From NCBI GenBank assembly GCA_014695195.1, contig JACJNW010000004.1, positions 1 to 36,757 of the forward strand: a DNA stretch of 36,757 bases. The letters are read 5' to 3'. Both the position numbers and the translations under genes were made by a program. The DNA is from Cyanobacteria bacterium FACHB-DQ100 (lineage in GTDB: Bacteria; Cyanobacteriota; Cyanobacteriia; Leptolyngbyales; Leptolyngbyaceae). Under the pieces are notes generated by a model. That model ran no database searches and was not told where the DNA came from. It was given only the letters and a program-made list of their open reading frames with translations. Positions 4,458 to 34,933 of this stretch are shown one piece after another (positions within the stretch are counted from its first letter, which is position 1; each line of letters starts with the position of its first letter).

Positions 4458-4489
4458 GATCTAAATCCTCTTGATGTGCAACTGATCCC

Positions 4490-5996: not shown

Positions 5997-6010
5997 GTCT
6001 GGCTGCAAGA

Positions 6011-6027
6011 TTTCACGTTGGTTTCAT
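6011..6027 (+). promoter_or_regulatory. Direct repeat TTTCAC-N5-TTTCAT upstream of the RND efflux operon
   Basis: TTTCAC (6011-6016) and TTTCAT (6022-6027) are separated by GTTGG. It is the same spacing and orientation as 5115-5131. It lies 49 bp before the chosen adaptor ATG, with TAATTG at 6048-6053 as a possible -10 element. It fits an activator site for the CopR-like regulator encoded at 11504. Confidence 0.6.
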
Positions 6028-6075
6028 TACTCTGTGAAACGCTGGTAATTGAGTGCTATGCGAAGGAAGCCGCTA

Positions 6076-7731: not shown

Positions 7732-7741
7732 GTACACCGTC

Positions 7742-10876: not shown

Positions 10877-10920
10877 CGGTCTAAAGCCAACAGTTTTGTT
10901 TATTAACAAGGAGAAACATC

Positions 10921-11409: not shown

Positions 11410-11503
11410 TACTGATTGGTATTTGATTTTGCTTAAGGTGTTTTGATCACCCCTCTGATTCACAGCCATATTACATAGGTAGAGTTATCTATCAAGCGAT
11501 CTC

Positions 11504-16703: not shown

Positions 16704-16732
16704 TTTCACACACTCTATTGGAGCAGTACATC

Positions 16733-17926: not shown

Positions 17927-18052
17927 GGCGTACTTCAAAGGCTTCTCACTACATCTCTATATTTAGGGCGGACATGAAGAAGCCGAAGGGTGTTAAACAC
18001 GCTCTAGTATTGCAATCTATTCAAGACCAAATCATTCTATGAGGACACAAGC

Positions 18053-19831: not shown

Positions 19832-22800
19832 GTGCTTTCCGTAACTCGATTTCTCTTGCAAAGCAAATCTTGTCAGCTCGCAAGTCATTTGATTGGTTTG
19901 AGTTGTTTCTGGATGAGTTCTCTCAATGTCGCTGTTGCTCAATCGATTATTCCGGATCAAACCCTGCCGCCCAACGAGCGATCGCAAGTCTTGCCTATCT
20001 TTCCCTCTGAAGATCTGATCACAGGCGGTGCAACTCGCGGCAGCAATTTATTCCACAGTTTCCGACAGTTTAACATTGAAGCAGGGAAAGGTGTTTACTT
20101 CCTTGATCCTGGAAAGATTCAGAATATCTTTAGCCGAGTCACAGGTAATACTCGTTCTGAGATTTTTGGTACATTGGGCGCGATTCAAATCGTTAACGGT
20201 AATTTTGCACCTACTAACGCGAATCTGTTTTTGATCAATTCCAACGGAATTATTTTTGGTGCAGGAGCGCGGCTGAACTTAGCTGGCTCCTTTGCTGCAA
20301 CTACAGCAGCAGGAATTCAATTCGGCGACCAAGGTAGCTTTAGTGCCATTAATCCGACTGCTCCAGGTCTTTTAACGGTCAATCCTTCTGCCTTTTTATT
20401 CAACCAGATTGCAGCACAGCCGATCGTTGTACGATCGCTCAATCCAGATTTTACAAAGCCCGAGGATCTAGCCATCCTGGGAGTTAATCCAAATAGAAGC
20501 TTGCTGCTAGTTGGCGGAGATGTACGCTTAGAAGCAGGATTGCTCAGTGCGAACGGTGGTCGCCTTGAATTAGGAGGATTGGCAGGCTCAGGAGCGATCG
20601 GACTCACTACAGATAATGCTCGTTTGAGTCTGAATTTCTTGTCTGACAGTCCACGATCCAATGTTGCGTTTACTCAAGCTGCGGGTGCAAATGTAACGGG
20701 GCAAGATGGAACAATCTCAATTCAGGCTGGTAATCTCGATGTTCTTGATGGCAGTGTTCTTTTTACGGGTATCAATAGCGGAACTGATCCCACAGCACAA
20801 GCAGGAGATATTCGCATCAATACAACTGGAACAACCACGATCGCGGGTTCTGGAACTGTTCGCTTTGCGACTGGAACACTCCTGACTCGGAATTCCAATG
20901 TCTTGAACACAATAGGAACTGGAAGCACCGGAAATAGTGGCAATGTTGTTATTCAAGCGAGATCAGTTAAGATTCAAGATTCTGCTCTAGTTGGAACGAG
21001 TGTGACTGGAATTGGAAATGCGGGAGATCTAAGTATTCAGGCGAGCGATCGAGTTCTTGTTGACAATGCCTTTCTTAACACAGGCGTGTTAGGTGATGGA
21101 CAGGGAAAGAGTGGCAATTTGAACATTGTGGGGCAAACTTTGACCTTGAACAATCGCGCTCTGATTTCAGCGAGTTCATTTGGGCAAGGGGAAGCCGGAA
21201 ATGTTCTGCTGCAAGCGACGGGCGCAATTTCGGCAAAAGATTCGACTGTCGCTGCCACGTTTTCTGGAGAAAGAGGAAAAGGAGGTAATGTTAGTATAGA
21301 GGCTGGCTCTTTGCTATTGGATAATGCTCGATTTAACACAGGCACGTTTGGACACGGAGACGCAGGAAGTATTGCAATTCGCACACGCGATGCAACGTCT
21401 CTGACGAATGGCAGCCAAATCAGTTCTAGTGTCATCGCTTTCCCACAGTTTGGATTTGTTGGAATTGGAAATAGTGGCGCAATTCAAATCGATGCGGCTG
21501 CACTTTCTCTAAGTGGGGATTCTACCATCTCAACACTGACCTTTGGTGTTGGGAATGCGGGGAGCATTAAGATTCGAGCCAGTGATGCAGTTCGGATGGA
21601 TAACAGTAGTATTTTTAGCGATGTGAGTTTAGGTGCGATCGGTCGGGGTGGCGATACTCAAATTCAAGCACAGTCTGTCTCGCTGTTGAATCGCTCGCGA
21701 TTAACAACTGGAACACTAGGGCAGGGAGATGCAGGTCATCTCTCGGTGCAAGCCAAGGATTCTATTCAAATCAGTGGCGAAAGTCTGGTTTTGAGTGCTG
21801 TGCAGGCGGGTGGAATCGGCAAAGCAGGCGATGTATTACTTCAAGCCCGATCGCTGTCACTTTCCGATAGTGCTAGATTAGTCACCGGAACTTTTGGACG
21901 AGGTGATGCAGGCAATCTCTCTGTGCAAGCAAAAGACTCGATTCAGTTGAGTGGTAATAGTTTAATCTCTAGCTCCGTGCAGGCGGGTGGAATTGGTAAA
22001 GGCGGAGATGTCACAATTCAAACGAGATCGCTCTCTCTAACAGAAGGCTCACAAATTCAATCAGCAATTTTCCGCTCACTTGGCGGTCTACCTCCTGGAC
22101 AAGGACAAGGTGGAACGGTGCGAGTCAATGCTTCGGGCTCTATTCAGCTATTAGGAACCAATGTAGAAGGATCTCCGAGTGCGTTGACTACCACGGCTGA
22201 AGTCAGTACTCAGGGACGAGCAGGCGATCTGTATGTCACAACCCCAGATTTGACAATCCGCGATCGTGCCAGTATTGGTGCTGAAACCCGCAATGCTGAT
22301 CCAGGTGGAAAAATTGTCATGCAAGTCGGCAACTTGACGATCGCGAATGGTGGACGAGTGCAAACCAGCGCGACTAATTCGGGTAATGCAGGCACAATTG
22401 ATGTCCAGGCAAATTCGGTGCAACTTCAGAACGGAATCATTTCAGCCGACTCGGTTCAATCTGGCGGCGGAAGCATTGCCTTAAATGCACGGGATGTTCG
22501 ACTCCGAGATCGATCGCTCGTTAACACAAATGTTGCTCAAGGTGCAAGTGGTGGTGGTGACATTAGCATTAACGCCAATACTTTCTTAGCATTAGAGGAT
22601 AGTGATATTTTGGCGAATGCAAACCAAGGTCGCGGCGGCAATATTACTATTCGTTCAACGGCTTTTATTGCTGATTTTTTCTCAAGCAATCGATCAAATT
22701 CAGCCCGTTACACCGGAGATCTGACCCAGTTTCGAGGAAACGATCGGGTTGATATTTCTGCATCTTCTGCGTTGGGAATTAGTGGTACAGTCACAATCCC

Positions 22801-23098
22801 GGATTTTAGTTTCCTGCAAGACAATCTGACACAGCTACCACAAGCGTTAATTGATCCAACTACCTTGTTAGCTGATAGTTGTATTGTTCGGAATCGTCAG
22901 GCGGGTAACTTCATCATCACAGGTTCAGGCGGATTGGCAGCACGCCCAGGAGATACCGCGATCGCATCGTTCTCAACAGGTGAAGTTCACGCCCTTCAGC
23001 CAGAACCACACAAACAGAGCCGTGAACGCATTGTTGAACCCCAAAGAATTTATCGCCTGTCCAATGGTCAACTAATCTTGAGTCGAGATTGCCCGTAG
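19832..23098 (+). CDS. Two-partner-secretion exoprotein (TpsA, filamentous hemagglutinin N-terminal domain)
   Basis: The 1088-residue protein starts at GTG and has a signal peptide ending about VAVAQ. The TPS domain (about 40-290) shows FHSFRQFNIEAGKGVYFLDP, VTGNTRSEIFGTLGAIQ and NANLFLINSNGIIFGAGA. The rest is a right-handed beta-helix of degenerate repeats (GNAGSI, GDAGNLSVQAKDSI, GGIGKGGDV and similar), ending with CIVRNRQAGNFIITGSGGL, the typical C-terminus of cyanobacterial TpsA proteins. It is exported through a TpsB outer-membrane partner, here probably the convergent gene at 24567-26282. The role may be adhesion, aggregation or surface signalling. It starts 63 bp after the ABC transporter gene but is probably a separate unit. 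Confidence 0.93.
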   Translation: MLSVTRFLLQSKSCQLASHLIGLSCFWMSSLNVAVAQSIIPDQTLPPNERSQVLPIFPSEDLITGGATRGSNLFHSFRQFNIEAGKGVYFLDPGKIQNIFSRVTGNTRSEIFGTLGAIQIVNGNFAPTNANLFLINSNGIIFGAGARLNLAGSFAATTAAGIQFGDQGSFSAINPTAPGLLTVNPSAFLFNQIAAQPIVVRSLNPDFTKPEDLAILGVNPNRSLLLVGGDVRLEAGLLSANGGRLELGGLAGSGAIGLTTDNARLSLNFLSDSPRSNVAFTQAAGANVTGQDGTISIQAGNLDVLDGSVLFTGINSGTDPTAQAGDIRINTTGTTTIAGSGTVRFATGTLLTRNSNVLNTIGTGSTGNSGNVVIQARSVKIQDSALVGTSVTGIGNAGDLSIQASDRVLVDNAFLNTGVLGDGQGKSGNLNIVGQTLTLNNRALISASSFGQGEAGNVLLQATGAISAKDSTVAATFSGERGKGGNVSIEAGSLLLDNARFNTGTFGHGDAGSIAIRTRDATSLTNGSQISSSVIAFPQFGFVGIGNSGAIQIDAAALSLSGDSTISTLTFGVGNAGSIKIRASDAVRMDNSSIFSDVSLGAIGRGGDTQIQAQSVSLLNRSRLTTGTLGQGDAGHLSVQAKDSIQISGESLVLSAVQAGGIGKAGDVLLQARSLSLSDSARLVTGTFGRGDAGNLSVQAKDSIQLSGNSLISSSVQAGGIGKGGDVTIQTRSLSLTEGSQIQSAIFRSLGGLPPGQGQGGTVRVNASGSIQLLGTNVEGSPSALTTTAEVSTQGRAGDLYVTTPDLTIRDRASIGAETRNADPGGKIVMQVGNLTIANGGRVQTSATNSGNAGTIDVQANSVQLQNGIISADSVQSGGGSIALNARDVRLRDRSLVNTNVAQGASGGGDISINANTFLALEDSDILANANQGRGGNITIRSTAFIADFFSSNRSNSARYTGDLTQFRGNDRVDISASSALGISGTVTIPDFSFLQDNLTQLPQALIDPTTLLADSCIVRNRQAGNFIITGSGGLAARPGDTAIASFSTGEVHALQPEPHKQSRERIVEPQRIYRLSNGQLILSRDCP

Positions 23099-23222
23099 TT
23101 TTCTGCAAACAGATTGACAGAATCGTACAAGCACTTTCGCTGAAAGATTACTAGGAGTCAGTTGTCCAAATTTGTAGTAATAGAGTACAAACACAAAGTT
23201 ATTCCAAGCCATTCGCACTGTT

Positions 23223-24091
23223 ATGAAATTTCATCGTTTGTTCGCATCATTGTCACTGATCACGATCGGCTTCAGTTTGGGCTTTAGTTCTCTTCCCGCA
23301 ATCTATGTTCCTGTCTCTGCTCAAACACCTACGAATCGTGCAGCTAGATTAGTTGCTAGAGAACGAGGTAGCCAAATTAATGTACGATCGTCCCCCTCAA
23401 TCTCTGCGCCAATTAAACACTATGGATTAGATGGTGATACTGTGGCAGTCTTACAGGAATCAAAGGGATCAGACGGTTATAGCTGGTATTTTGTGAGATT
23501 TCCAAAATCACAAGCGATAGGTTGGGTACGAGGCGATTTCGTTGCATTTTCAAATCAATCCTCCGCTCCGAATTCTCCGATTCAAACGCTACCAGATGTG
23601 GAAATGTCCGCTTTCGGGCTGTCACTTATGAACGAGCAGAATCTGTCAATGCACCTGCACTAGAAGCAGCGATCGCGAAAGAGCTAGCTAGCGATACTGC
23701 TAATGTGCGCTATCTCTATAACCTGGTTGACCTCAATCAAGACGATCGCTATGAAGTCATCGCCTATTTACCGAGCGCCTGTGGAACTGGAGGATGTTCG
23801 ATGATGATCTTTAGAGCAACTGGGAATGGACACGCATTACTGTCGAGACACACTTTGATTCGGAATCCGATCGTAGTTAGTAATACAACAAAAAATGGTT
23901 GACGCGATTTAGTCGTGTATGTTTCGGGTGGCGATGCAAAGCCAAGCTACCACGTCTTGAAGTTTGATGGTTCAGAGTATCTGCTCAACCCTTCAACCGC
24001 GTCAGAAGTTCCACCGGGTACGATCATTTCAGGTCAGTCTGTGAGCGCAGATCAGATTTTTCCGAATATTGGACTAAGAATTTCTAATTGA
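23223..24091 (+). pseudogene. SH3-domain (SH3_3) secreted protein, broken by a frameshift and an in-frame TGA
   Basis: The 5' part (from ATG 23223) has a signal peptide and an SH3_3 domain: INVRSSPSISAPIKHYGLDGD, YSWYFVRF and GWVRGDFVAF. Near 23600 the meaningful frame jumps to AVTYERAESVNAPALEAAIA and on to SACGTGGCSMMIFRATG. At 23900-23902 a TGA stands in N-G-stop-R-D-L-V-V-Y-V-S-G-G, where homologous patterns have Trp (TGG). The frame then runs on to TGA 24089-24091 (LRISN). Two lesions in an otherwise clear gene indicate recent decay or sequence errors. The role would be an envelope-associated protein of unknown function. Confidence 0.8.
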
Positions 24092-24114
24092 TAGTAGCAA
24101 TACAAGCATCTCAT

Positions 24115-24143
24115 AGCCGTTAACCCAAGAGAGGTTAATGGCT
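24115..24143. terminator. Strong hairpin, possible terminator
   Basis: AGCCGTTAACC (24115-24125) pairs with GGTTAATGGCT (24133-24143): 11 bp including one G-T wobble, with a 7-nt loop. It lies 24 bp after the stop of the SH3 gene. The following TCAGTTGTCTG is only weakly T-rich. Confidence 0.5.
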
Positions 24144-24301
24144 TCAGTTGTCTGATTACCGTTTTCGGCAAAGTCAGTGACTTGATTGGGCAATATTCTC
24201 TACAACATTGTGTCATTAACTTGGTCGAAACAGGCCGTGTGTTCTTGGGAGGCTCGCTCTACTGTAAAAGTAATCAAGCAATACCAAAGGAGAACCGAAT
24301 C

Positions 24302-24565
24302 ATGTTACCCCCAATTCTTGACACGATCGCATCCAAACTCGATGCTCTCGAAATTCAAAGTTCAAACATGGCACATTTTTTCTGCCGGCTCATTCCTGCT
24401 CAATGTCCCTTTGAACGCACTATTTCCTGTTTTGGTCGAACCTTACTCTACATCCCACCGCTTTGCAAACTTAACCCATTCTACGAACAGCTAGTGAGCT
24501 TACGTTTTCGAGCATTGTGCTATCTTGCAGATAGTTGTGGTGAAGATATCACTACCTACTGCTAG
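24302..24565 (+). CDS. Mo-dependent nitrogenase C-terminal family protein
   Basis: The 87-residue protein shows the conserved pattern of this cyanobacterial family (Mo-nitro_C): CRLIPAQCPFERTI, FGRTLLYIPPLCKLNPFYEQ and SLRFRALCYLADSCGED, with six Cys downstream of residue 25. AAGGAG precedes ATG 24302, which therefore beats longer upstream readings. Despite the name, members are found in strains without nitrogenase and no catalytic role is known. The gene ends 1 bp from the TpsB stop on the opposite strand, and no nif gene is present here. Confidence 0.85.
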   Translation: MLPPILDTIASKLDALEIQSSNMAHFFCRLIPAQCPFERTISCFGRTLLYIPPLCKLNPFYEQLVSLRFRALCYLADSCGEDITTYC

Positions 24566-24566
24566 T

Positions 24567-26282
24567 TCAAAATGGTTGATACCGCACTGAAAAATACAAT
24601 CCATTCTCCTGCAAAGAATTTCCACGCCCAGAAACTGATTTGAGCGGAATCCCATAATCGATCCGAACATTCACACTAGAACTAGGATTCCATTCCAATC
24701 CCACCCCAATTCCCATCAGTAAAGAGTCTAGATCTGTTGCTTTGCGATTCCAACCTTTACCAATGTCAAAAAACGGGGCAATCTGCAAAACACTTGGGTC
24801 TTTTGTCAAAGGAAGGCGAAGTTCAATCGAACCTAAAACGCCATTATCTGTGACAAGCTGATTCTGACCATAGCCGCGGACTGTCCCAACTCCACCCAGA
24901 CTAAATCTTTCTAAAGATAGGAGCGAACCTGGTGTAATTTGAGCAGCAGTTCGCGTGAGCAACAACACTCGCGGCGACAGCTGTTGCACCCACTGAAACT
25001 GACCTAACCAGCTAAAGAATCGCCCATCCGTGCCTGTCTCATTAACTGTTGCACCCAAAGCATTAATTCCAAAACTGAACTGCGATCGAGCCGCCAAGAC
25101 TCGATTTGGCGCACGGCTCACCCAATCTTGAGAAACCCTCAGTACCGTCACCTTCGATTCTCCAGTCTCTGCACCTTCTGAAAACGAGAACGGAATATCA
25201 TCGAGCAGAAAGGTCTGACTGCGGCGTAAATCGAGAGAAAGCCCTAGTGCAAATTCGGTTTGAGGAGTGCGGACGATCGGTTGACGAAACGAGATCGCAA
25301 AGGTGCGCGTTTTGCTCCTAATCCCATAATCCCGAAAAATTTCATCGGTAATTCTGCTGCTATTATTGCCATAGCGAAGCGCGATCGTAGCATCATTAGC
25401 ACTAATCGGCACAGAATAGCTCAGGTCATATAAGTTCAAACCCTCAGTGCGTCCGTATTCTGCATTGAAGCGATCGCCGAGTCCCAATAGGTTATCGTGG
25501 TTCACAAGCACTGAACCTTGAAGCGAACCGATACTAGGGGATTGATGATTGTCTAGCCCAAATCCGATGTGGAGTGCAGGTGCTTCGAGAAGTTGCACGC
25601 GCAAAACATTGCGACCCGGAACACTGCCTGCACTCAGCTCTGCATTGACCCTGACAATTAATGGATTCAGTTGCAAAAGTTGTAAGGCACGTTCGAGTTT
25701 CTGCTGATTTAAGGGGGCGCTCACTGCGAGTTCTAAGCGCTTTCTCACATAGTGATCGTGCAATCGCCGAAGTCCACTGATCTCAATTCGTTCTAGCACA
25801 CCTTCAATCACTTGAATTTTAACAATTCCTTGATCCAAAACTTGATTGTTTGGAAGATATGCTCCTGATGTTACATAACCACTCTTGATATACAGTTGGG
25901 TAATTGCAGAACGCAATGCAATCAGGTCATCAAAGGTAATCTCTCGGTTCTCATAAGTAAGAATTAGGTTTGCAATTTCTTCTTTAAGAATAGTATTGCC
26001 TACAACTTCGATTTTTCGTGCTTTGAAGCGAAGGTCAGAATTTGCAGGAGTTTTAGATTGACTTAGAGTGGGGATCTGAAGCAGAGGTTGGGGCAGCGAA
26101 TCAATCGGCGCTGGTGGCGTTGACGGGAAGGGCTCTGTAGGCTTTGAAATGGTTTGTTCGATAATATTAGGGACTATGGGTGGAATTGAAACAGGAGAAG
26201 GTGAATTTTGCGCTGTTGCGATGTTATTGGAACTACTCAAAGCGATCGCGACTACTATGACAAAATGTGCCTTTTTTTCCAT
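24567..26282 (-). CDS. TpsB outer-membrane transporter (ShlB/FhaC/HecB family)
   Basis: From ATG 26282 the 571-residue protein has a signal peptide (MEKKAHFVIVVAIAL), a Pro/Ser-rich linker, a POTRA_2 domain (FKARKIEVVGNTILKEEI to LNPLIVRVNAEL) and a 16-strand ShlB-type barrel ending in SVRYQPF with a terminal Phe. VRGYGQNQLVTDNG is the VRGY/F-type motif of the barrel's loop 6, which protrudes into the pore. It secretes TpsA proteins across the outer membrane; the exoprotein at 19832-23098 is the obvious substrate. It is unusual that partner genes are convergent and separated by two others; TPS pairs are normally co-directional. A longer start at 26321 is possible but would precede the signal peptide. 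Confidence 0.92.
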   Translation of the reverse strand: MEKKAHFVIVVAIALSSSNNIATAQNSPSPVSIPPIVPNIIEQTISKPTEPFPSTPPAPIDSLPQPLLQIPTLSQSKTPANSDLRFKARKIEVVGNTILKEEIANLILTYENREITFDDLIALRSAITQLYIKSGYVTSGAYLPNNQVLDQGIVKIQVIEGVLERIEISGLRRLHDHYVRKRLELAVSAPLNQQKLERALQLLQLNPLIVRVNAELSAGSVPGRNVLRVQLLEAPALHIGFGLDNHQSPSIGSLQGSVLVNHDNLLGLGDRFNAEYGRTEGLNLYDLSYSVPISANDATIALRYGNNSSRITDEIFRDYGIRSKTRTFAISFRQPIVRTPQTEFALGLSLDLRRSQTFLLDDIPFSFSEGAETGESKVTVLRVSQDWVSRAPNRVLAARSQFSFGINALGATVNETGTDGRFFSWLGQFQWVQQLSPRVLLLTRTAAQITPGSLLSLERFSLGGVGTVRGYGQNQLVTDNGVLGSIELRLPLTKDPSVLQIAPFFDIGKGWNRKATDLDSLLMGIGVGLEWNPSSSVNVRIDYGIPLKSVSGRGNSLQENGLYFSVRYQPF

Positions 26283-26445
26283 AAATATTTGATTACAAAG
26301 ATTTATTGTTATTCTGCCCAACAGATTCGCGGTTCTACTCTGTTCGATACAGTATCGTTTTTACCTCGATTACGACAAACGTTCTTAAGCTTAGGATACT
26401 GCTTGCTTATCAGTCATGTTTAAACTTTAAAGCATAAGTGGTCAA

Positions 26446-26486
26446 AAACCGATCGCTTCTCCAGAGGATGGATCGACGATCGGTTT
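26446..26486 (-). terminator. Probable terminator downstream of the 26588 gene
   Basis: AAACCGATCG (26446-26455) is perfectly inverted at 26477-26486 and, read on the minus strand, followed by a TTTTT run. The 21-nt loop is long. It lies about 100 bp past the stop of the minus-strand gene at 26588. The rest of 26283-26587 holds no gene. Confidence 0.55.
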
Positions 26487-26587
26487 CTGTAGATATTTTA
26501 TAGCCTCACATTCGCATATTCTGCAATCTTGCAATTCTTGATCTCGTCTGGGAATTGCATTGATACAATACCTAATGCGAGAGCTGA

Positions 26588-26992
26588 TCAGTACGCACAA
26601 AAGCGTAAATCATAGTAATCTTTATCGCTAGCAAGTTGAATTCGATAGTCTCCAGTTTGAGGAACTGTGACTGATCCAACTTCTCCGGCTGACATGAGAA
26701 AATCTTGAACTTGTTGTCCTTGGGGATTAATCAAGGTAACTAAAGAAACATACTCATCCATATTGCGAACCTCAAAGCGCTGTCCAGCTTTCAAGCGCAT
26801 CATATACACTGGAAAGGGTTCTTGCTTGTTGTAGGCGTAAGAGACAGAATAGGGCTTGCAATGGCGTTTTGCCGGAATTTGTACTCGAATATCGGCTTTT
26901 GCAATGCTTGGAAATGCACAGAGCGCTACTGTGGCGGCGACCCCGATCGAGAGCAGTGAAGCGATAGTTTTGGATGTGTTTTCCATGAACAT
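26588..26992 (-). CDS. Small secreted protein, unknown function
   Basis: From ATG 26992 (GGAG 9 nt upstream) the protein has 134 residues with a signal peptide (IASLLSIGVAATVALCAFPSIAKA). The mature part reads as a small beta domain: VQIPAKRHCKPYSV, KAGQRFEVRNMDEYVSLVTL, GSVTVPQTGDYRIQLASD and a C-terminal RFCAY. The GDYRI pattern resembles bacterial pre-peptidase-type or cupredoxin-like beta-sandwiches. Cys66 and Cys132 (approximate positions) could form a disulfide. It is probably periplasmic or secreted, downstream of a second small secreted gene and a VOC gene on the same strand. Confidence 0.65.
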   Translation of the reverse strand: MFMENTSKTIASLLSIGVAATVALCAFPSIAKADIRVQIPAKRHCKPYSVSYAYNKQEPFPVYMMRLKAGQRFEVRNMDEYVSLVTLINPQGQQVQDFLMSAGEVGSVTVPQTGDYRIQLASDKDYYDLRFCAY

Positions 26993-27080
26993 TGAGAGTT
27001 CTCCTAGAGTGATGATGAGTTTGAGATAGATTCGAGCAGTTATGAGAGGGTTGCAATAGCCCACACAGGAAGGGGAGCAG

Positions 27081-27326
27081 CTACAACCCTGAATTTGCAA
27101 TGATTGAGAGCTTTACAAGTGCGGGGCTTCCTGACTGATTGGAGAGTTTGAGACAGAAAGATAGCAACCGAGTCGGTAACGATTTTGAACCTCCTAGATT
27201 CACAACCAAAGAACTTGAACTTTCACAATGACCCAAATTTGTATTGGCAAGAACATCCGTCGCACTGATAAGAACTGCGATCGATGTGGTTAAAATCATT
27301 GCTGTAGCAAGGAGATTGTATTTCAT
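27081..27326 (-). CDS. Small secreted protein, unknown function
   Basis: The 81-residue protein has a clear signal peptide (LLATAMILTTSIAVLISATDVLA) and a mature part of about 53 residues with two Cys (GHCESSSS, LSFCLKLSNQ) that may form a disulfide. AAAGGAAAG precedes the ATG, and the start is 12 bp after the VOC-gene stop, so the two are co-transcribed. No family is recognised. It may be a small exported binding protein or an immunity- or toxin-like peptide; nothing shows which. Confidence 0.55.
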   Translation of the reverse strand: MKYNLLATAMILTTSIAVLISATDVLANTNLGHCESSSSLVVNLGGSKSLPTRLLSFCLKLSNQSGSPALVKLSIIANSGL

Positions 27327-27338
27327 GAGTCTTTCCTT

Positions 27339-27809
27339 TTAGGCAGCAGCGGGTACTTCTTGATTCAGGAAAGCTTCGCATTTACCAGGCTGCATAAACT
27401 CCAAATACTTCGATATAATCTCAGGACTGAGAAATTCAAAGGCAAACTGATCCTCGACCCAGAATTCAATTACTTTGAATGGGCCTCGATCGCAGAGTCT
27501 AACGATCCATTCTTCTTGGACTCCGATCGCTTCAATTTCTTGCAGGCTGGTAGGAACCGAGAGTGCTGCGTGAACTGAGCCAAATCGGGGCGCGATCGGG
27601 GTTGTCTTAAATTCCACTTCTTCTAAGCCTGGAACAAGGCTTGTCCCAGCAGGTAGCAGTTCGATTGCAGTCCCATATTCATCACCTGCGACAACAATAT
27701 AGCTACCCTCATGTACCGGAAACGGAAAGACTTGTCCACGCATCACTTTGGCGAGCACTTCAGCAACACGGCGGGGATTTTTAACATCGATGGAAATGTG
27801 GTGCAACAT
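27339..27809 (-). CDS. VOC-fold (glyoxalase/bleomycin-resistance) family protein
   Basis: The 156-residue protein begins MLHHISIDVKNPRRVAEVLA, the standard start of a VOC domain with His3/His4 as possible metal ligands, followed by GDEYGTAIELLPAG with Glu as second ligand, FGSVHAALSV with His, and IEFWVEDQFAFEFLSP at the end. The full H-E-H-E set is plausible, so it may be a metal-dependent lyase or dioxygenase-like enzyme or a binding protein; the substrate is unknown. It heads a three-gene minus-strand unit with two small secreted proteins. Confidence 0.78.
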   Translation of the reverse strand: MLHHISIDVKNPRRVAEVLAKVMRGQVFPFPVHEGSYIVVAGDEYGTAIELLPAGTSLVPGLEEVEFKTTPIAPRFGSVHAALSVPTSLQEIEAIGVQEEWIVRLCDRGPFKVIEFWVEDQFAFEFLSPEIISKYLEFMQPGKCEAFLNQEVPAAA

Positions 27810-28012
27810 AGAATGAATTCCTCAATAGATAGGGTACTGATTTTTAGAAGCAATCGGTTGATATGTTGGATTGCTTAATTACTAGAGTAGAGAGATTGCT
27901 ACCCAGAAGCACGTACTGTTTCTGTAAATGCGATCGCACAAATTAGAGCAATTCGCTGCACAATTTCGCCAACTCAATTGCAGAAAACAACGCGCAATCT
28001 ATTCCAATTCTG

Positions 28013-30595
28013 TTAGTTCCAATTGCCGACTAGAACAAATGCTGCCCAATATGCTGGATGAGAATATTGACTATCAGATTCTAGTAGCGATCGCTGAGCC
28101 GCTCTTAAAGCCTCAGTCTTACTCAAATGGCTCCGTAATCCCTGATAAAACTGGCTCGATAGCTTAGCAGTCGCTGCGTCGTTAATAAACCAAAGCGAAG
28201 CTAATGCACTTTTTGCACCCGCTTGAATCGCGATTCCAGCTAAACCCAGTGCAGCCCGCTCATCTCCTGCGGCACTTTGGCAAGCGGTTAGTGTTAGCAG
28301 TTCCAAGGGATCATTCTGTCGAACCGTACTGCGAATTAAGACATCTAATTGATTGAGGGTGAGCTTCTGTCGATCGCCTGTGATCAAAAACGAATTTTCA
28401 GGATCGCTGCTAAATTCTCCGTGAGTCGCAATGTGCAAAATCGGATAACTTTCTTGAGTGAGTTCTTTCTGAAGTCGAGCGCGAGTAAAAGATTGATCTA
28501 AAAGCGGTTTACTTTCTGGAATCAGACGTTCTACATTTTGAATTTCCTGGGTCACGTAGGGGAGCGGTTGAAAAGTTCGTCCCGCGATCGTTGCTCCTTG
28601 AGTTAGCCCTAAAATCAAAGCGCGTAGAGGTCTCGTAGAAGGCGCTGATGCTTCGGTGAATGCCAGGCTTGGAGTTGTGACTACTGCATATTTTTGGATG
28701 AGAAACTGTTGACCATCGTGCAGTGCTGCCATCGGAACACTGCGTAAAATTCCATCTTGAACAAAGACTAATGTGGTTACTTTGGAGTTTGCGATCGACG
28801 ATGCAAAGGGACGAATCACCCAATCATAAAGCTGCTGAGCTGGCCTGGAATCATAGTCATCATAAAAGCGCTCTAGTCCCCGTCGAAACTCATTCACCGT
28901 TGCTCTTAGAGTGCGATTGTCCGTATCAATCCAAGCAATCTGGTGTGCTTGGTTGGGTAGACTGAGAATAATTGCAGTCCGACCCTCTAGAATGATTGAA
29001 CTAAAAACGGCTGTAGTTGACGTATCGATCGCTGATTTTTCGCTAATATTAGCAATCTTAATCACACAATCATTGCCGAAATAGTTCTGTAATTCTGCTA
29101 ATTTGAGCGAATCCATTGTTTTCAACACATCGCCTAACTCAGATGCCGTTGCTTTAGAACTAGATTTATCTGCTTGTAATCCTAATGCAATTCGCTCACG
29201 GTAAATCGGTTCAACAGTATCTCGAAAATCTAGCTGGAGTTCTCGATCGCTGGTGAGAATATCGCCGCGAATACTTTCTAGAGTTTTAATCGTGCGATCG
29301 TACATTGCGATCGCTGATTTTCGTTGATTTTGTGCTGTGAGTAATCGTGCTGCTTGCCATTCCCAGAGGTAAAGACTATCTTTCTCCTGTTCTGCTGCCC
29401 ACCGTGCTTGCTGCGTCAGTCGAGTTGCAGTCGCGAAATCGCCTTGACACTCCGCTAAATGACCCCACTCTCCTAAAGCAAATGATTCTGCGCGTGGATT
29501 GCGAATTCGACTAGCAACTTGCTGCGCTTGGTTCAGTAGCCGTTCTTCAGCGAGAATCGAAGCTTTGGATAAACAACGAGGTTTTACAAAAGACTCAGTG
29601 GGTTGGACTGGTTCAAGTAAATGAGCTAAGGTAATGCTGGCATAAACGCGATCGCGGTTTTCTGGAAGCTGTTGCAGTACCGTTATCGCCTGCTGATGTG
29701 TAGACTGTGCTGACTTTGGATCACCTATGCGATAGTAAATTGGGATCAGACCTTGTAAAACTTGCTGTCTGACAAGTGGCTGATTTTGAGGATTTAGAAT
29801 TTCTAAGCTTCTTTTGAGATAGGTAATTGCTTGTTGATCTGATTCCTTTCCGATTTGCTGATAGCGTTTTGCTTCGATTTGATCGTCTCGTTGCGATGAT
29901 GACTCAGCACGATGATAGTTAATTTGTGCTAAGTTACTATAACTATTTCCCAAGCTCAAAAGTGCGATCGCTTGATAGTCCTTGAGTCCCAAAGCTTGCG
30001 CTATCTTGAGTCCAGATTCAGCCGTTGCGATCGCAGCCTCATGGTTTCCTGTCAATCGATAAGCTTCTGCTAAACTCCCCAATGCAGCCGCTTCGACCGC
30101 TTGATTTTGACTGGCTCTTGCAAGTTGTAATGCGCTTCCTGGTTTACACAGTCCACTCGAATCTGATTGACAGACCAATGCGATCGCTTGTTTTGGTTGT
30201 CCGATTTGACTATAAAGCTGTGCTTTCTCGACTAGAATCCGTCCAACTTCACCCGATTGTTTGAGTCGTTGATAGAGTGCAATCGTTTGATCCCAGCTTT
30301 TGAGGGTTTGAGAGATATCGCCAAGTTGGTGATAGGCACGCGCAAGATTTTCTTGAACGATCGCCAACTCAGGGGTATTTTGTTCTCCTTGAAGCGCTTG
30401 GCTTGCAGTTTGCCACGCTTCGATCGCTTTTTGATAGCTGCCCGATCGATACTGACTCACGCCCTGTTGTACCCATTGCGAGGCATCTACTCTAGATTGG
30501 CTGTTTGCTGCCGTCCCAAACCAAAGACACAGAACTAACGTGCCTAAAAAAAGAACCCAAAGATGCCAACGAGGGTGGTTAAGGCGAATCGGCAT
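28013..30595 (-). CDS. Exported TPR-CHAT domain protein (caspase-like protease)
   Basis: The 860-residue protein has an N-terminal signal or anchor (WVLFLGTLVLCLWFGTAA), a tetratricopeptide-repeat superhelix (about 40-420; repeats such as AIVQENLARAYHQLGDISQ and AYRLTGNHEAAIATAESGL) and a C-terminal CHAT peptidase domain (about 540-860). The catalytic dyad is intact: His725 in HIATHGEF and Cys772 in LTACQSA. It ends HPAYWAAFVLVGNW, as most cyanobacterial CHAT proteins do. CHAT proteases are caspase relatives activated by partner proteins. Its signal sequence places it outside the cytoplasm, unlike immune CHAT proteins such as Craspase TPR-CHAT. It is 18 bp downstream of the DUF928 gene, hence the same transcript. 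Confidence 0.9.
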   Translation of the reverse strand: MPIRLNHPRWHLWVLFLGTLVLCLWFGTAANSQSRVDASQWVQQGVSQYRSGSYQKAIEAWQTASQALQGEQNTPELAIVQENLARAYHQLGDISQTLKSWDQTIALYQRLKQSGEVGRILVEKAQLYSQIGQPKQAIALVCQSDSSGLCKPGSALQLARASQNQAVEAAALGSLAEAYRLTGNHEAAIATAESGLKIAQALGLKDYQAIALLSLGNSYSNLAQINYHRAESSSQRDDQIEAKRYQQIGKESDQQAITYLKRSLEILNPQNQPLVRQQVLQGLIPIYYRIGDPKSAQSTHQQAITVLQQLPENRDRVYASITLAHLLEPVQPTESFVKPRCLSKASILAEERLLNQAQQVASRIRNPRAESFALGEWGHLAECQGDFATATRLTQQARWAAEQEKDSLYLWEWQAARLLTAQNQRKSAIAMYDRTIKTLESIRGDILTSDRELQLDFRDTVEPIYRERIALGLQADKSSSKATASELGDVLKTMDSLKLAELQNYFGNDCVIKIANISEKSAIDTSTTAVFSSIILEGRTAIILSLPNQAHQIAWIDTDNRTLRATVNEFRRGLERFYDDYDSRPAQQLYDWVIRPFASSIANSKVTTLVFVQDGILRSVPMAALHDGQQFLIQKYAVVTTPSLAFTEASAPSTRPLRALILGLTQGATIAGRTFQPLPYVTQEIQNVERLIPESKPLLDQSFTRARLQKELTQESYPILHIATHGEFSSDPENSFLITGDRQKLTLNQLDVLIRSTVRQNDPLELLTLTACQSAAGDERAALGLAGIAIQAGAKSALASLWFINDAATAKLSSQFYQGLRSHLSKTEALRAAQRSLLESDSQYSHPAYWAAFVLVGNWN

Positions 30596-30613
30596 GAGCA
30601 GCAGGAATTATTA

Positions 30614-31366
30614 CTATTTAAGGGTGGCAAGTTGTTGTAAACGAGCTTTTTGCTCTTGAATAATCGCTCCTAGCTGCGGCGTTTCTTTTTCCGACTTCGC
30701 TAAATCATTGAGCAATGAATGCTGCAATTGTTTGACCGCAATAGACGGATTAGGCTGTGTAACTTCAGCGATCGCATCATACCAAAAGCTATTTTTGGCA
30801 TACAGCTCGGCTCGTTCAATCTCACTCTTGGCGCTGTTAAGTTGCGATCGCAAGGTAGCCGGAAATGGCAAGATTTGCAGCGTTGCACCTGCAACCAAAT
30901 CTTGTGACGGATGATTCGGATTACACGTTAGGATGACTTGCCAACTGTAGAGTTTTCCAGGTTGTAATTCAGGCTGGCTTGGGGGCAGTGAAAACTTCAT
31001 CAGCCCAGATTGACTCTGCATTTGAACTTTTCTCAGCAGTTGACGCTTTCCACTACCCTCCTGATAGAGTCGAAACTCTAACGGGTAAGATTGCGTATCT
31101 GTTACAAACCAAATAAAGGCTGGACGGGTCGAGACGGTTTGACCCGCATAGCTTAGGGGTGCTAGAACCGTTAAGCCAGCTTCAGGGTTTCCAGAACACC
31201 CGCCGCGTGTCCCTGCCGTTGAAGTTCCTCCAGACGGTGCAGAAGGTTCGCTGGGAGGCTGGTAATCGGCATGGGCAGGTCGTGTTTCTAATAAGCCAAT
31301 GAAGATTAACCCGATCGCGGTTTGAACCGATGCAGTAAGTAACCGTTTTTTAAGAGCCAGAAACAT
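30614..31366 (-). CDS. DUF928 protein
   Basis: The 250-residue protein has a signal peptide (ASVQTAIGLIFIGLLETRPAHA), a Ser/Gly/Pro-rich linker with GGCSG, and the DUF928 beta domain (about 60-170): LTVLAPLSYAGQTVSTRPAFIWF, PLEFRLYQ, GKLYSWQVILTCNP. A helical C-terminus (LRSQLNSAKSEIERAELYAKN) resembles the tail of TPR-associated members. DUF928 is almost confined to cyanobacteria and often sits by CHAT, CHASE2 and hemagglutinin-type genes, as here. No activity is known. It shares a divergent promoter region with the pseudokinase gene. Confidence 0.85.
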   Translation of the reverse strand: MFLALKKRLLTASVQTAIGLIFIGLLETRPAHADYQPPSEPSAPSGGTSTAGTRGGCSGNPEAGLTVLAPLSYAGQTVSTRPAFIWFVTDTQSYPLEFRLYQEGSGKRQLLRKVQMQSQSGLMKFSLPPSQPELQPGKLYSWQVILTCNPNHPSQDLVAGATLQILPFPATLRSQLNSAKSEIERAELYAKNSFWYDAIAEVTQPNPSIAVKQLQHSLLNDLAKSEKETPQLGAIIQEQKARLQQLATLK

Positions 31367-31454
31367 CGTTTTCTCAATAGCGCTGACAATTTGTTTTCAC
31401 TTTACTAGATCGCTGCCCAACCTCCTAGACTGATAACAATAAATTTACAGGTTA

Positions 31455-31480
31455 AAAAGTGCAATTAGGTTTGCACTTTT
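31455..31480. promoter_or_regulatory. Perfect 10-bp inverted repeat between divergent operons
   Basis: AAAAGTGCAA (31455-31464) and TTGCACTTTT (31471-31480) with a 6-nt spacer, midway between the DUF928 start (31366) and the pseudokinase start (31558). In a divergent promoter region an operator is more natural than a terminator, although the T-run makes it terminator-like in both directions. Confidence 0.5.
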
Positions 31481-31557
31481 CTGCGATCGAAATTTCTACT
31501 TTATGACACTGCGTTAGCGTAAAAGGCTCGTGCAAATCACGTTTTCAAGTCCTTAAA

Positions 31558-32277
31558 ATGATTTTTGTAATTTACCCTTTTGGATCAAATTGTGTGAGCC
31601 TCATTCTTGGATTGATAGAAATGCTCTTATTAGGAGCATGGTTTGTTCTCCGGTGGCATCGACTTCAGCAAGCGTTGCAGTGGTGGTATCGGCAGCACGT
31701 ATTGCGATTATTTGATGAAGCGGAAGCTGCGCGGAACGGTGTTCTTCAAGATGCTTTTACCCTGAGACGTACTGTAGAACTATCGTTAATACAGCACCAA
31801 GCCCTAAAAAAAGCAGATGAAGAAAAATTGCTCATGACCTTGGGAGAACTGCACGATTCCCTCAAACGATTTAGTGATTTTCTATCGCCTCCTTACCTTG
31901 AAGATAGCTTTCCCATGTCGATCGAACATTTGCTGCGATCGCATCAACATCCCGATGTTGTGTTAGATTTCTCTCTTCCTAAAAAGTGGCAACCGAATTC
32001 CTATGAGCAAAGCCGCGTGGTTTGGATCGCCATCGATGAATTGCTCCGCATTGCGATCGCGCCCTCGGTTGAATCCATTTCAGCGTGTTTGACTCAGCGT
32101 ACTACAACTCATGAATTCATGATTCAGATTTTCTATTCAAACGACAATTGTCAAATCTTTCAGACTCAACTCACAGAACTGTCCCACCTGAGACGGGCTG
32201 CACAATTTTTAACAGCCGGAACCTGTACTTATCATTTCGATAATGCGACGCTGAAATGGTTACTACAATGGTCGTAG
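31558..32277 (+). CDS. Degenerate membrane histidine kinase (pseudokinase) of the CHASE2/RR locus
   Basis: The 239-residue protein has one N-terminal helix (VSLILGLIEMLLLGAWFVL), then EAARNGVLQDAFTLRR (residues 56-71). It aligns with TTIHNGALQTLAKMLR of the CHASE2 kinase downstream, with Arg59 in place of the phospho-accepting His421. The later stretch SRVVWIAIDELLRIAIAPS aligns with the kinase N-box but lacks its Asn, and no glycine-rich box is left. It should therefore not phosphorylate or bind ATP and may be a scaffold or regulator of the kinase-regulator pair. The ribosome-binding site is weak; ATG 31621 is an alternative that would lose part of the helix. Confidence 0.65.
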   Translation: MIFVIYPFGSNCVSLILGLIEMLLLGAWFVLRWHRLQQALQWWYRQHVLRLFDEAEAARNGVLQDAFTLRRTVELSLIQHQALKKADEEKLLMTLGELHDSLKRFSDFLSPPYLEDSFPMSIEHLLRSHQHPDVVLDFSLPKKWQPNSYEQSRVVWIAIDELLRIAIAPSVESISACLTQRTTTHEFMIQIFYSNDNCQIFQTQLTELSHLRRAAQFLTAGTCTYHFDNATLKWLLQWS

Positions 32278-32284
32278 TATATTC

Positions 32285-32324
32285 AAAAGGTTAGAAACAA
32301 AAGGTTAAACACGATAAAAGGTTA
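32285..32324 (+). repeat. Three AAAAGGTTA direct repeats before the response-regulator gene
   Basis: AAAAGGTTA occurs at 32285-32293, 32299-32307 and 32316-32324 (periods 14 and 17) in the 53-bp gap between the pseudokinase and regulator genes. The last copy holds the Shine-Dalgarno-like AAAGG 10 nt from the ATG. They could be regulator-binding or translation-control sites. Confidence 0.5.
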
Positions 32325-32330
32325 AACATT

Positions 32331-32981
32331 ATGGCAAGCTCGAAATTCGTGGTCATTGATGATCATGAAGCCGTATTAAGTGGAACGGTTGCGGTACTCC
32401 ATCAACACTATCCAGACGTTGAGATTGCGATCGCCCAGACGGGGCAACAAGCTCTACAACAGATTGAAGGCACTAAGCCAGATTTAGTCGTGATGGATTT
32501 AGCACTACCCGATGTGCCGGGAGCACCTGCTCGACCGGATGTAGGCATTCAACTGCTCAAAACCTTATTAAAGAACTATCCGAGCCTCAATATTGTGGTG
32601 CAGAGCGCTCATGTACGATCGCTCGTTCGTCTCAAGCCTGAAATTAGCACCCACGAAGGCGGTTTTGCCGTGGTAGATAAAAGCTTACCAATGAAGGATA
32701 TGCTGACGCGAGTCGATTGGGCACTGCAAGGATTACTCTACACGCCTAAGGAGATGCGAACCGGATTAGAGATTAAGCCAGAATGGTTAGAAGTGTTGCA
32801 GCTTGCATTTGGAGAAGGATTGCAAGACAAAGCGATCGCAGAACGAATGCGAGTGTCTGAACGCTCAGTCCGGCACTACTGGTCTAAAATCCAGGATGCG
32901 CTAGAAGTCTACCCCGATGCAGGTAAGAACATTCGGATTCAAACGGAAATGCGATCGCGTGAAGAAGGATTAATCGACTAA
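32331..32981 (+). CDS. Response regulator with LuxR/NarL-type C-terminal HTH
   Basis: The 216-residue protein has a receiver with Asp10/Asp11, phospho-site Asp56 (VVMDLALPD), Ser92 and Lys117 (VVDKSLP), and a C-terminal helix-turn-helix (LQDKAIAERMRVSERSVRHYW, about 161-181). The DNA-binding part is a divergent NarL/LuxR domain. The NarX-type kinase follows after 6 bp, giving a cognate pair. Likely targets are the nearby promoters, for example the 31455-31480 dyad or the AAAAGGTTA repeats; this is inference. Confidence 0.85.
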   Translation: MASSKFVVIDDHEAVLSGTVAVLHQHYPDVEIAIAQTGQQALQQIEGTKPDLVVMDLALPDVPGAPARPDVGIQLLKTLLKNYPSLNIVVQSAHVRSLVRLKPEISTHEGGFAVVDKSLPMKDMLTRVDWALQGLLYTPKEMRTGLEIKPEWLEVLQLAFGEGLQDKAIAERMRVSERSVRHYWSKIQDALEVYPDAGKNIRIQTEMRSREEGLID

Positions 32982-32987
32982 ACGATC

Positions 32988-34865
32988 ATGATTCGCAAAC
33001 TAAAAGCAGAACTGTTACTGTGGCGAGTCGGTGCAATTCCTGGATTAGCTGTGATTGCTAGTACGATCGCGCTTCGTGCCTTCGGATTTCTTCAACCTTT
33101 AGAATTAATGGCATTCGATGCCGCACTACGATCTCGGCCCGCAGAACCGATAGATGAGCGAATTTTGATTGTTGGCATTACCGATGAGGACATTCATCGC
33201 ATTGGCACTTATCCGCTTCCCGATCGCGATCTTGCAACGATCATTCAGCGAATTCAAGCAGATAAACCGAATGTCATTGGGCTTGACTTCTTACGAGATG
33301 TTCCCGTTTCACCGGGACGTGAAGCTTTTCTTAAAGCGCTTCAATCTCCGAATGTGATTGCAATTGAGAAAGCACTCCCTGTGCAAGGCGGATTTAGTGT
33401 TGCAGCCCCTCCGAACGTTCCCACAAAACAGCTCGGCTTTTCTGATGTGCTACCCGATCAAGATGGGAGATTGCGGCGTTGGTTACTGGGTGCAACGAAC
33501 CCAAAACGGCAGTACCGATTTTCTTTAGCACTTCAGTTAGCACGATCGTACCTATCAACTCAAGGAATTCAGTTAGAAAATGGTGTGCGCGATCGCGTCG
33601 CGATGCGATTCGGTCAAGCAGAACTGACAAGGTTTCAGCCGCATTCTGGGGGATATATTAATGCAGATGCAGGTGGAAATCAGGTTCTATTGTATCCACG
33701 GGCTGGGCGTAAACCGTTTCGGATCGTCTCCTGGCGCGACTTGCAATTGGGAACAGTAAATTCTGATTGGATTCGAGGACGAATTGTTTTGATTGGCTTG
33801 ACTGGAATTAGCACCAAGGATGTTGTTAATTCAGATGCCGTACCTAGTGCAATCTATGGCTTGGTTAATGGTGTAGAAATGCAGGCGCACGCTGTCAGCC
33901 AAATCTTGAGCGCTACTTTAGACGATCGACCACTCCTGCAGGTTTGGTCAGACGGGTGGGAATATCTTTGGATTGTTGCGTGGGGAATTGTTGGCATCAG
34001 TTTCGGACGAGTGGCACGATCGCCTGGGCGCATTTTACTAGGTGTCGCGCTCTCATCAGTTGGATTGATTGCGATCTCGTATGGGCTGATCTGGATTGGC
34101 TGGTGGATTCCAGTCGTCCCAGCATTGATCGTTCTAGTATTCAACGGTGCAGGATTAGCAGCAGCATCAATTTATCGTTACGAACAATCATTACGGGAGC
34201 GATTGCGCGATCGTCAGGCTGTGATAGATCAGACATTCACCACGATTCACAATGGAGCTTTGCAAACGCTGGCAAAAATGTTGCGGGATGTGCAAATGCA
34301 AAATGCAACTCATCCTCTGCTACCGGATCTAAAGCATCTCAATCAAGAATTGCGTTCCGTCTATGAAGTCATCCAGCGAGAAACTCTAGAGCAGGAAACA
34401 AGCTTTCAACTCGATGCGAATTCTATCCTAGATCTACAAGCGCCGCTCCATACGCTCCTGTATGAAGTCTACTTGCAGACAATGGAGCGAGATTTACCTT
34501 ACTTCAAAACGATTCGGACACGCATTGTAAAATTTGAACCCATGAACGATCTCGGTCTCAGCTTAGAGCAAAAGCGAAACTTGTGTCGATTTCTAGAAGA
34601 AGCATTGTGTAATGTAGGCAAGTATGCGATCAACACCACTCGAATTACAGTAATTTGCGCTGAAGAAAATAGCAAACAAGTCATTCGAGTGATTGATCAT
34701 GGCAACACTGATTTCAGTGGGAAGGCTTCTGCTGCTGGATTGGGTACTCGTCAGGCAGAGATTCTAGCACAAAAACTTCGAGGCACATTCCAACGGTTGC
34801 CCAACAAACCGAAAGGAATGCACTGTGAATTGAACTGGCAAGCACAAAAACTTCGGAGACTGTAA
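32988..34865 (+). CDS. CHASE2-domain sensor histidine kinase
   Basis: The 625-residue protein has an N-terminal helix (about 14-36), an extracytoplasmic CHASE2 domain (about 40-310; MAFDAALRSRP, ILIVGITDEDI, VIGLDFLRD), three closely spaced helices (about 325-395), then a NarX-like HisKA_3 region with His421 (TTIHNGALQTL) and an ATPase domain with N-box EEALCNVGKYA (Asn542), G1 VIDHGN (568-573) and G2 GLGTRQAE (584-591). The ligand of CHASE2 is unknown. The gene is 6 bp from the response regulator and forms a two-component system with it. Confidence 0.9.
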   Translation: MIRKLKAELLLWRVGAIPGLAVIASTIALRAFGFLQPLELMAFDAALRSRPAEPIDERILIVGITDEDIHRIGTYPLPDRDLATIIQRIQADKPNVIGLDFLRDVPVSPGREAFLKALQSPNVIAIEKALPVQGGFSVAAPPNVPTKQLGFSDVLPDQDGRLRRWLLGATNPKRQYRFSLALQLARSYLSTQGIQLENGVRDRVAMRFGQAELTRFQPHSGGYINADAGGNQVLLYPRAGRKPFRIVSWRDLQLGTVNSDWIRGRIVLIGLTGISTKDVVNSDAVPSAIYGLVNGVEMQAHAVSQILSATLDDRPLLQVWSDGWEYLWIVAWGIVGISFGRVARSPGRILLGVALSSVGLIAISYGLIWIGWWIPVVPALIVLVFNGAGLAAASIYRYEQSLRERLRDRQAVIDQTFTTIHNGALQTLAKMLRDVQMQNATHPLLPDLKHLNQELRSVYEVIQRETLEQETSFQLDANSILDLQAPLHTLLYEVYLQTMERDLPYFKTIRTRIVKFEPMNDLGLSLEQKRNLCRFLEEALCNVGKYAINTTRITVICAEENSKQVIRVIDHGNTDFSGKASAAGLGTRQAEILAQKLRGTFQRLPNKPKGMHCELNWQAQKLRRL

Positions 34866-34933
34866 ATTAAATTAGACTTTATCGGAAATAGCAGGGATGA
34901 GGATTCGAGGCAATGCCTTCCAATCAGCTTTGA

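Follow-up and report, generated by a model that had tools for sequence, protein, structure and literature searches.

CHASE2 is a widespread sensor domain whose ligand has been called unknown (PMC10581220) and which is mentioned in a survey of cyanobacterial Ser/Thr kinases (PMC2176072). In Nostoc punctiforme, a CHASE2-DUF928-WD40 cluster, a single one in one of seven strains, has been interpreted as WD40 signalling, in a paper that also cites the acid-stress response of a Synechocystis DUF928 protein (PMC5587647, Sci Rep 2017). Regarding caspase-like proteins, EACC2-caspase systems are described with a variable C-terminus (e.g., CHASE2), an extracytoplasmic function (ECF) sigma factor and DUF1822 (PMC8195603, eLife 2021), and a caspase-like domain and CHASE2 have been reported within one Trichodesmium protein among the cyanobacterial metacaspases (PMC2853523, BMC Genomics 2010). 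Here we consider contig C4 of the 5.5-Mb genome of Cyanobacteria bacterium FACHB-DQ100 (JACJNW010000004.1), the whole of which, 36,757 bases, we call the window, and in it a gene set encoding a CHASE2 sensor kinase, a DUF928 protein and a CHAT protease next to components of two-partner secretion (TPS). In the open-access literature searched, most subscription papers being outside its coverage, we found no description of this module and no function for DUF928, a family named there only in PMC5587647. We report that these genes form a recurrent and apparently mobile cassette, in which DUF928 is most likely an exported partner on the input side of CHASE2.

The initial annotation had placed a TpsA-type exoprotein, a TpsB transporter, a TPR-CHAT protease, a DUF928 protein and a divergent CHASE2 kinase-regulator set in one stretch, and all of them are present, with coordinates given by program-listed open reading frames (ORFs) and Pfam domain matches. 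The CHASE2 sensor histidine kinase (32988-34865, forward strand) bears CHASE2 at residues 23-337 (E 4.7e-57), His421 and the N-box Asn542, and it is preceded by a response regulator (32331-32981, forward strand) with phospho-acceptor Asp56 in its receiver and a C-terminal LuxR-type helix-turn-helix, the latter a weak Pfam match. Divergent from this set, on the reverse strand, are DUF928 (30614-31366; Pfam E 1.6e-37) and, after a gap of 19 bp, the TPR-CHAT caspase-like protease (28013-30595; Pfam E 2.3e-65), whose dyad His725/Cys772 is intact at the positions claimed; by hydropathy, both proteins begin with a hydrophobic export-type segment. The kinase-regulator set, present and divergent as described, comprises three genes, the first of which (31558-32277, forward strand) encodes a small protein, and the stretch holds, besides the genes named in the initial annotation, additional ORFs at 23223-23663, 26588-27100 and 27339-27809.

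The recurrence of this gene company was measured by placing five Pfam families (CHASE2, DUF928, CHAT, TPS and ShlB) in 13 genomes, the window's and 12 others. DUF928 is present in 39 of 116 genomes, from which these were taken because their contigs are few, so that the sample is DUF928-enriched; four further few-contig DUF928 genomes (G060, G070, G077 and G113) were omitted, two of which share a genus with genomes in the set. For CHAT, the best 155 of 229 matches were used, and circular shifts, 2000 per test, served as the null model. DUF928 lies within 5 kb of CHASE2 in 32 of 56 cases (0.83 expected) and of CHAT in 20 of 56 (1.56 expected), and within 15 kb of TPS in 20 of 56 (2.03 expected) and of ShlB in 10 of 56 (0.89 expected). 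Clusters with at least three families number 35, ten of which contain all five. With the window's own genome set aside, DUF928 and CHASE2 are within 5 kb in 26 of 50 cases, a count reached by none of the 2000 shifts (shift maximum 8), while at 5 kb the associations with TPS and with ShlB, taken singly, are weak, as for DUF928-TPS (3/50, matched by 66 of 2000 shifts) and CHASE2-TPS (4/76, matched by 31 of 2000 shifts). Plasmids carry the same association. DUF928 occurs in 13 plasmid records, all cyanobacterial by name, and in the six examined its direct neighbour is CHASE2 in four, CHAT in three and either in five; Planktothrix agardhii p1 encodes CHASE2, DUF928, CHAT and ShlB with a TPS protein one gene beyond, and in the Pseudanabaena PCC 7367 record neither CHASE2 nor CHAT is present over the 8 kb to one side of DUF928 or the 2.4 kb that remain to the record's end on the other. 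The initial annotation had stated that these families co-occur repeatedly in cyanobacteria, had proposed such statistics and would have given up its module had co-occurrence stayed at chance level; the statement is borne out far above chance in the genome set and also by the annotated plasmids (5/6), and the clustering is not chance. CHASE2, DUF928 and CHAT are the core, to which TPS components are loosely attached, and the cassette is real and narrower than first claimed. Of note, a cluster elsewhere (G002:C1:1805008-1809201, L062) has a TPS domain and a ShlB transporter in one open frame of ~1470 amino acids, and also holds CHAT, two DUF928 and two CHASE2.

Evidence on DUF928 comes from all 85 CHASE2 ORFs of the 13 genomes, whose outputs were classed by our own profiles, with Pfam applied to the window's and to 19 others. 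Counting DUF928 matches of at least 100 bits within 2 kb, 30 of the 85 have a DUF928 neighbour: 10 of 18 CHAT-CHASE2 proteins, 6 of 14 cyclases, 6 of 8 hybrid kinases, 5 of 6 window-type kinases and 3 of 39 others, one of these three a Ser/Thr kinase; divergent DUF928 found with an iterated profile only (L126, L149 and L150, ~51 bits) were excluded from these pairs. None of the four GGDEF or GGDEF-EAL forms of CHASE2 identified by Pfam has DUF928 within 2 kb. The CHASE2 and DUF928 genes of Nostoc NIES-3756 come after genes with the annotations PP2C phosphatase, ATP-binding protein and anti-sigma-factor antagonist, possibly another CHASE2 output. Over the 30 neighbour pairs, CHASE2 and DUF928 domain distances correlate with r 0.525, a value reached in none of 5000 reshuffles either within genomes (mean 0.116, standard deviation 0.070) or within output classes (mean 0.254). 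Co-variation is lower for DUF928-CHAT (r 0.444, 4/3000 permutations), CHASE2-CHAT (0.231, 19/3000), DUF928-TPS (0.301, 53/3000) and CHAT-TPS (0.300, 197/3000), so that TPS is the loosest member. As DUF928 accompanies CHASE2 across differing outputs, a role as input-side partner fits better than that of a mere target gene, and its retention beside a sensor whose inner signalling half has been swapped suggests that it helps CHASE2 to read something outside the cell. A separate observation concerns one CHASE2-cyclase locus (L060:2553-3353), where a metallo-beta-lactamase matching Anti-Pycsar Apyc1 (77 bits, cut-off 50) lies between CHASE2-cyclase and DUF928 and is perhaps a cyclic-nucleotide phosphodiesterase serving the cyclase.

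Loci of the window's own type were gathered by a scan with five aligned regulators, from which we took the best 80 of at least 362 matching loci, cyanobacterial by title as far as recognised and many of them ending at contig ends. They contain the window kinase type in 78 cases, CHASE2 in 72, the small first protein in 56, DUF928 in 38, CHAT in 28, TPS in 10 and TpsB in 4, usually in the order small protein, regulator, CHASE2 kinase, DUF928. Among the 56 with 4 kb on both sides, CHASE2, DUF928 and CHAT occur together in 22, CHASE2 and DUF928 in 7, CHASE2 alone in 22 and none of the three in 5; CHAT without DUF928 occurs in none. DUF928 is present in 29 of these; 28 have it downstream on the kinase strand, and CHAT is convergent in 17 of the 29, shares the strand of DUF928 in 5 and is missing from 7. 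An upstream, divergent DUF928, as in the window, is seen there only in strain FACHB-63. Eight kinases have lost CHASE2 (L180, L182, L190, L203, L205, L218, L231 and L232), at loci that have neither DUF928 nor CHAT, so that DUF928 stands at 0 of 8 loci without CHASE2 vs 38 of 70 with it (Fisher 0.005). For DUF928 and CHAT, the phylogenetic pair test gave a median p of 0.016 (79 rows), but significance was lost (four pairs, median p 0.5) once contig-end loci were dropped.

Regarding the proteins themselves, export-type starts were scored by a hydropathy count in fetched loci rather than by a signal-peptide predictor. Such a start is found in 50 of 57 DUF928 and 19 of 25 separate CHAT proteins (two ORFs being incomplete at the locus end), compared with 127 of 439 control ORFs and none of 18 CHAT-CHASE2 fusion proteins. 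DUF928 is predicted (pLDDT 84) to fold into an Ig/FN3-like beta-sandwich (~65-165) with a helical tail (170-248); searches by sequence returned no solved relatives, and fold matches were generic Ig-like ones only (best E 5.2e-4, TM-score 0.30). All 33 CHAT and TPS-CHAT proteins from the loci first gathered retain the His/Cys dyad. Of 11 ORFs in which a long region precedes CHASE2, nine retain it, and two have an AAA domain in that region. In at least 19 of 80 TPS domains, counted by hand, TPS and CHAT share one open frame with CHAT last, and these single proteins indicate that CHAT can travel as a secreted passenger. The extracytoplasmic location first proposed for CHAT thus gains support from both the hydrophobic start and the TPS-CHAT proteins. 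Three other loci (L057, L068 and L075) encode a CHAT-CHASE2 protein and DUF1822 (Pfam in L057 and L068, own profile in L075), along with DUF928 and, nearby, a weak ECF-sigma-like gene; L057 belongs to the window's genome.

The two-component part keeps its key residues, with Asp56 and Lys117 in 83 of 83 aligned regulators and the phospho-His421 and N-box Asn542 in 71 of 71 aligned kinases, and the window's CHASE2 kinase is intact as judged from these positions. The small protein matches no family of Pfam or NCBIfam. Its predicted structure (pLDDT 82) resembles DesK-type histidine kinases in Foldseek (E 2.8e-7, TM-score just 0.39), and its motif I-R-D/N-x-L-L-Q aligns, in a weak profile alignment (probability 12%), with I-H-N-G-P-L-Q of the kinase. 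At the phospho-His position so placed, Arg occupies 51 of 57 sequences (Arg59 in the window), His 5 and Gln 1, and the N-box Asn is absent. It differs from DesK-type kinases by the apparent loss of these two residues, and it is therefore probably a membrane-anchored pseudokinase.

That the cassette travels is suggested by comparison with FACHB-63, the nearest named relative. BLASTN of the window against its locus L166 gave a single match, 24132-34874 (10.7 kb; 10,759 columns, 95.9% identity to L166:1792-12541), with sharp borders, the block beginning past the TpsB stop and ending 9 bases beyond the kinase stop. The flanks differ. In FACHB-63, the left side is taken by an ORF reading by eye as ribosomal protein L10, and the right side by a C39-peptidase ATP-binding cassette (ABC) transporter with a cyclic-nucleotide-binding (cNMP) domain (Pfam), an HlyD-like protein and a small HetP-like protein (the last two by eye). 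In the window, TpsA lies to the left, and to the right a transposase fragment in genome-wide repeated sequence. The window's own genome also has an L10 region, without the block, which is 88% identical to L166 over 1050 columns and 80% over 271 columns. Different flanks, together with the higher identity of the block, make it appear to have moved as a unit, probably in a recent transfer between lineages, a reading drawn from one comparison. This L10 region is a candidate empty site at most, as the FACHB-63 right flank was not found in the 19 kb around it; megablast returned no near-identical plasmid copies of the block. On a Gloeothece PCC 7424 plasmid (L255), CHAT-DUF928-CHASE2 is flanked by two IS5-like copies in opposite orientation, an arrangement resembling a composite transposon.

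The same match bears on the extent of the module, which the initial annotation had drawn from TpsA to the CHASE2 kinase. As it begins at 24132, TpsA (19832-23098, forward strand; TPS domain, Pfam E 1.7e-44) and the SH3_3 protein (23223-23663, forward strand; Pfam) are not block members, while the part from TpsB to the CHASE2 kinase is conserved. TpsB (24567-26321, reverse strand), a ShlB/FhaC-type outer-membrane transporter with POTRA, barrel and VRGY motif (ShlB/POTRA E 3.5e-35), is encoded next to TpsA in convergent orientation, and it alone of the two lies inside; TpsA may still stand beside the block by chance in the window. Two further block genes on the reverse strand have counterparts in L166 and match neither Pfam nor NCBIfam, a small protein exported-looking by eye (26588-27100) and a 156-amino-acid protein that is VOC-like only by eye (27339-27809). 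Elsewhere in the window, 1012-13526 is a copper-type efflux island as judged by domain make-up, encoding a cupredoxin-like protein, a heavy-metal P-type ATPase, HlyD/CusB-like and AcrB-family proteins, a Trans_reg_C response regulator and a kinase, and 15177-19768 holds consecutive genes for a cytochrome-b5-domain protein, a chalcone-synthase-like type III polyketide synthase and an ABC transporter, possibly a small biosynthetic cluster.

Taken as a whole, we tentatively favor, at a little under an even chance, a mobile envelope-sensing cassette. DUF928, exported beyond the inner membrane, would be the cognate partner of the CHASE2 domain, as co-sensor or ligand carrier; the CHASE2 kinase, paired with the membrane-anchored pseudokinase, would phosphorylate the LuxR-type regulator, and the exported TPR-CHAT protease would operate in the compartment of DUF928. 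The CHAT substrate would most likely be an exported or surface protein (a TPS exoprotein, DUF928 or CHASE2 itself), and DUF928 and CHASE2 might report the outcome of this proteolysis. Genes, domains, catalytic and phospho-residues, co-localisation, co-variation, the sharp-edged block and the exchange of outputs can be read from the sequences, from which export, contact between DUF928 and CHASE2, protease activity, substrate and direction of signalling are inferred. A bolder version, in which CHAT acts on an exported protein and DUF928 reads the product and passes it to CHASE2, one front end serving many outputs inside the cell (kinase, hybrid kinase, cyclase, cytoplasmic caspase with sigma factor, Ser/Thr kinase), is clearly unlikely.

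Several observations weigh against the envelope-sensing cassette. Of the 56 DUF928 genes, 17 are more than 15 kb from any CHASE2 and from any of the CHAT matches listed, which means that DUF928 can work in other settings or in trans; DUF928 is missing from the 2 kb around 55 of the 85 CHASE2 ORFs, and the 22 window-type loci with CHASE2 alone keep the kinase with no DUF928 or CHAT nearby. Correlations such as those observed can arise from plain co-inheritance of linked genes alone, and the joint loss of CHASE2 and DUF928 is not significant when phylogeny is controlled, over four and, after filtering, three independent pairs, about one of which supports it and none opposes it. A spaced-dyad search returned no shared upstream motif tying the regulator to DUF928 or CHAT: nothing emerged upstream of these two genes, and AT-rich signals only upstream of the pseudokinase. 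Finally, a C39-peptidase ABC exporter paired with HlyD adjoins 42 of the 80 regulator loci, which would allow for a peptide as the sensed signal.

The most serious competitor, which we consider somewhat unlikely, is that the CHASE2 kinase and regulator sense a small molecule alone and switch on the adjacent DUF928-CHAT(-TPS) surface genes as an ordinary output. The classical kinase-regulator layout with intact residues agrees with it, as do the downstream position of DUF928 on the kinase's strand in 28 of 29 loci and kinase-DUF928 gaps of 307-579 bp in four loci of the genome set, which leave space for DUF928's own promoter. However, DUF928 is found equally near or nearer to CHASE2-cyclases, CHAT-CHASE2 proteins and hybrid kinases, mostly without a window-type regulator alongside, and the missing upstream motif counts against this explanation as well. 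Because the outputs found with CHASE2 and DUF928 differ so much, the earlier proposal that CHASE2 controls CHAT and DUF928 is doubtful in its direction as regards DUF928. Chance assembly in an insertion-sequence-rich region, to which the variable flanks and, on the right, the transposase fragment with its repeated sequence might point, is hardly credible given recurrence far over shuffles in the 12 other genomes and in annotated plasmids; for CHASE2-DUF928-CHAT it is refuted by the shift test.

Contact-dependent killing or programmed cell death, with CHAT or TpsA as effector against self or neighbours, had also been proposed. The VENN motif is a hallmark of contact-dependent inhibition (CdiBAI), and by Pfam and motif check TpsA has neither this motif nor a C-terminal toxin domain. 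The caspase-like dyad is intact and CHAT is a TPS passenger in other genomes; yet CHAT begins with an export-type segment and PADLOC, which yielded generic TPR and receiver-type matches only, gave no convincing assignment to a defence role, which leaves contact killing and cell death unsupported and very improbable. Of the first interpretation, co-occurrence and an extracytoplasmic CHAT are thus retained, and the membership of TpsA and killing are not. Peptide sensing is improbable, if less so: CHASE2 would read a double-glycine-leader peptide released by the C39-peptidase ABC/HlyD system, and DUF928 and CHAT would capture or process it. The transporter and HlyD pair at 42 of 80 loci (own profiles), 12 of these with DUF928, is in its favor, as is the C39-ABC transporter right of the block in FACHB-63; moreover, small ORFs resembling double-glycine leaders were seen by eye upstream of the transporter in 9 of 10 loci (L187, L188, L199, L178, L184, L213, L220, L183 and L172), of which a motif pattern flagged 1 of 9. 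On the other side, the complete pair is missing from 26 of 38 DUF928 loci, and none of the 20 window proteins scanned has a C39-peptidase domain. The nearest precedent is Synechococcus elongatus, in which small proteins exported via a C39-type transporter drive biofilm formation (PMC9260433).

Compared with known systems, the envelope-sensing cassette shares with the Nostoc punctiforme cluster a CHASE2 near DUF928, and differs in that the passage describing that cluster has no CHAT, TPS, output exchange or statistics (PMC5587647). It recalls the EACC2-caspase systems in that fused CHAT-CHASE2 proteins occur in this and other genomes, next to DUF1822 and a gene that weakly matches sigma factors; in the window, by contrast, CHASE2 bears a kinase and no caspase domain, the output is a kinase and regulator, and CHAT is separate with an export-type start, and DUF928 does not figure in PMC8195603. 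The Trichodesmium protein likewise unites a caspase-like domain with CHASE2 (PMC2853523), where the window has a CHASE2-kinase and a separate CHAT. The parts of two-partner secretion (type Vb) are complete, with an N-terminal TPS domain in TpsA and POTRA and barrel in TpsB, although TpsA lies outside the conserved block that holds TpsB. TPR followed by CHAT with a His/Cys dyad is also the make-up of the Craspase protease Csx29 (PMC10028731), from which the window's CHAT differs by its export-type start; no Cas7-11 or CRISPR protein was seen among the 20 window proteins scanned, other ORFs being unscanned. Craspase links a CHAT protease to a sigma factor, a logic resembling that of the CHAT-CHASE2 loci with an ECF-sigma-like gene, and HetF, a divisome protein of Anabaena, is another cyanobacterial CHAT protein (PMC8406250), for which a link to CHASE2 or DUF928 was neither sought nor seen. 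With an exported partner that is conserved while outputs are swapped, the input of CHASE2 can be tested directly. Moreover, an exported caspase-like protease in the cassette would link cyanobacterial caspase-type enzymes to envelope sensing or surface processing rather than to cell death, and a CHAT-DUF928-CHASE2 relay, if true, would make caspase-type proteolysis an extracellular sensory input. The literature already has caspase-CHASE2 systems and, for a single strain, DUF928 next to CHASE2; new here is that DUF928 keeps CHASE2 company through changes of output, and DUF928 as the exported partner of CHASE2 is the best-supported new idea.

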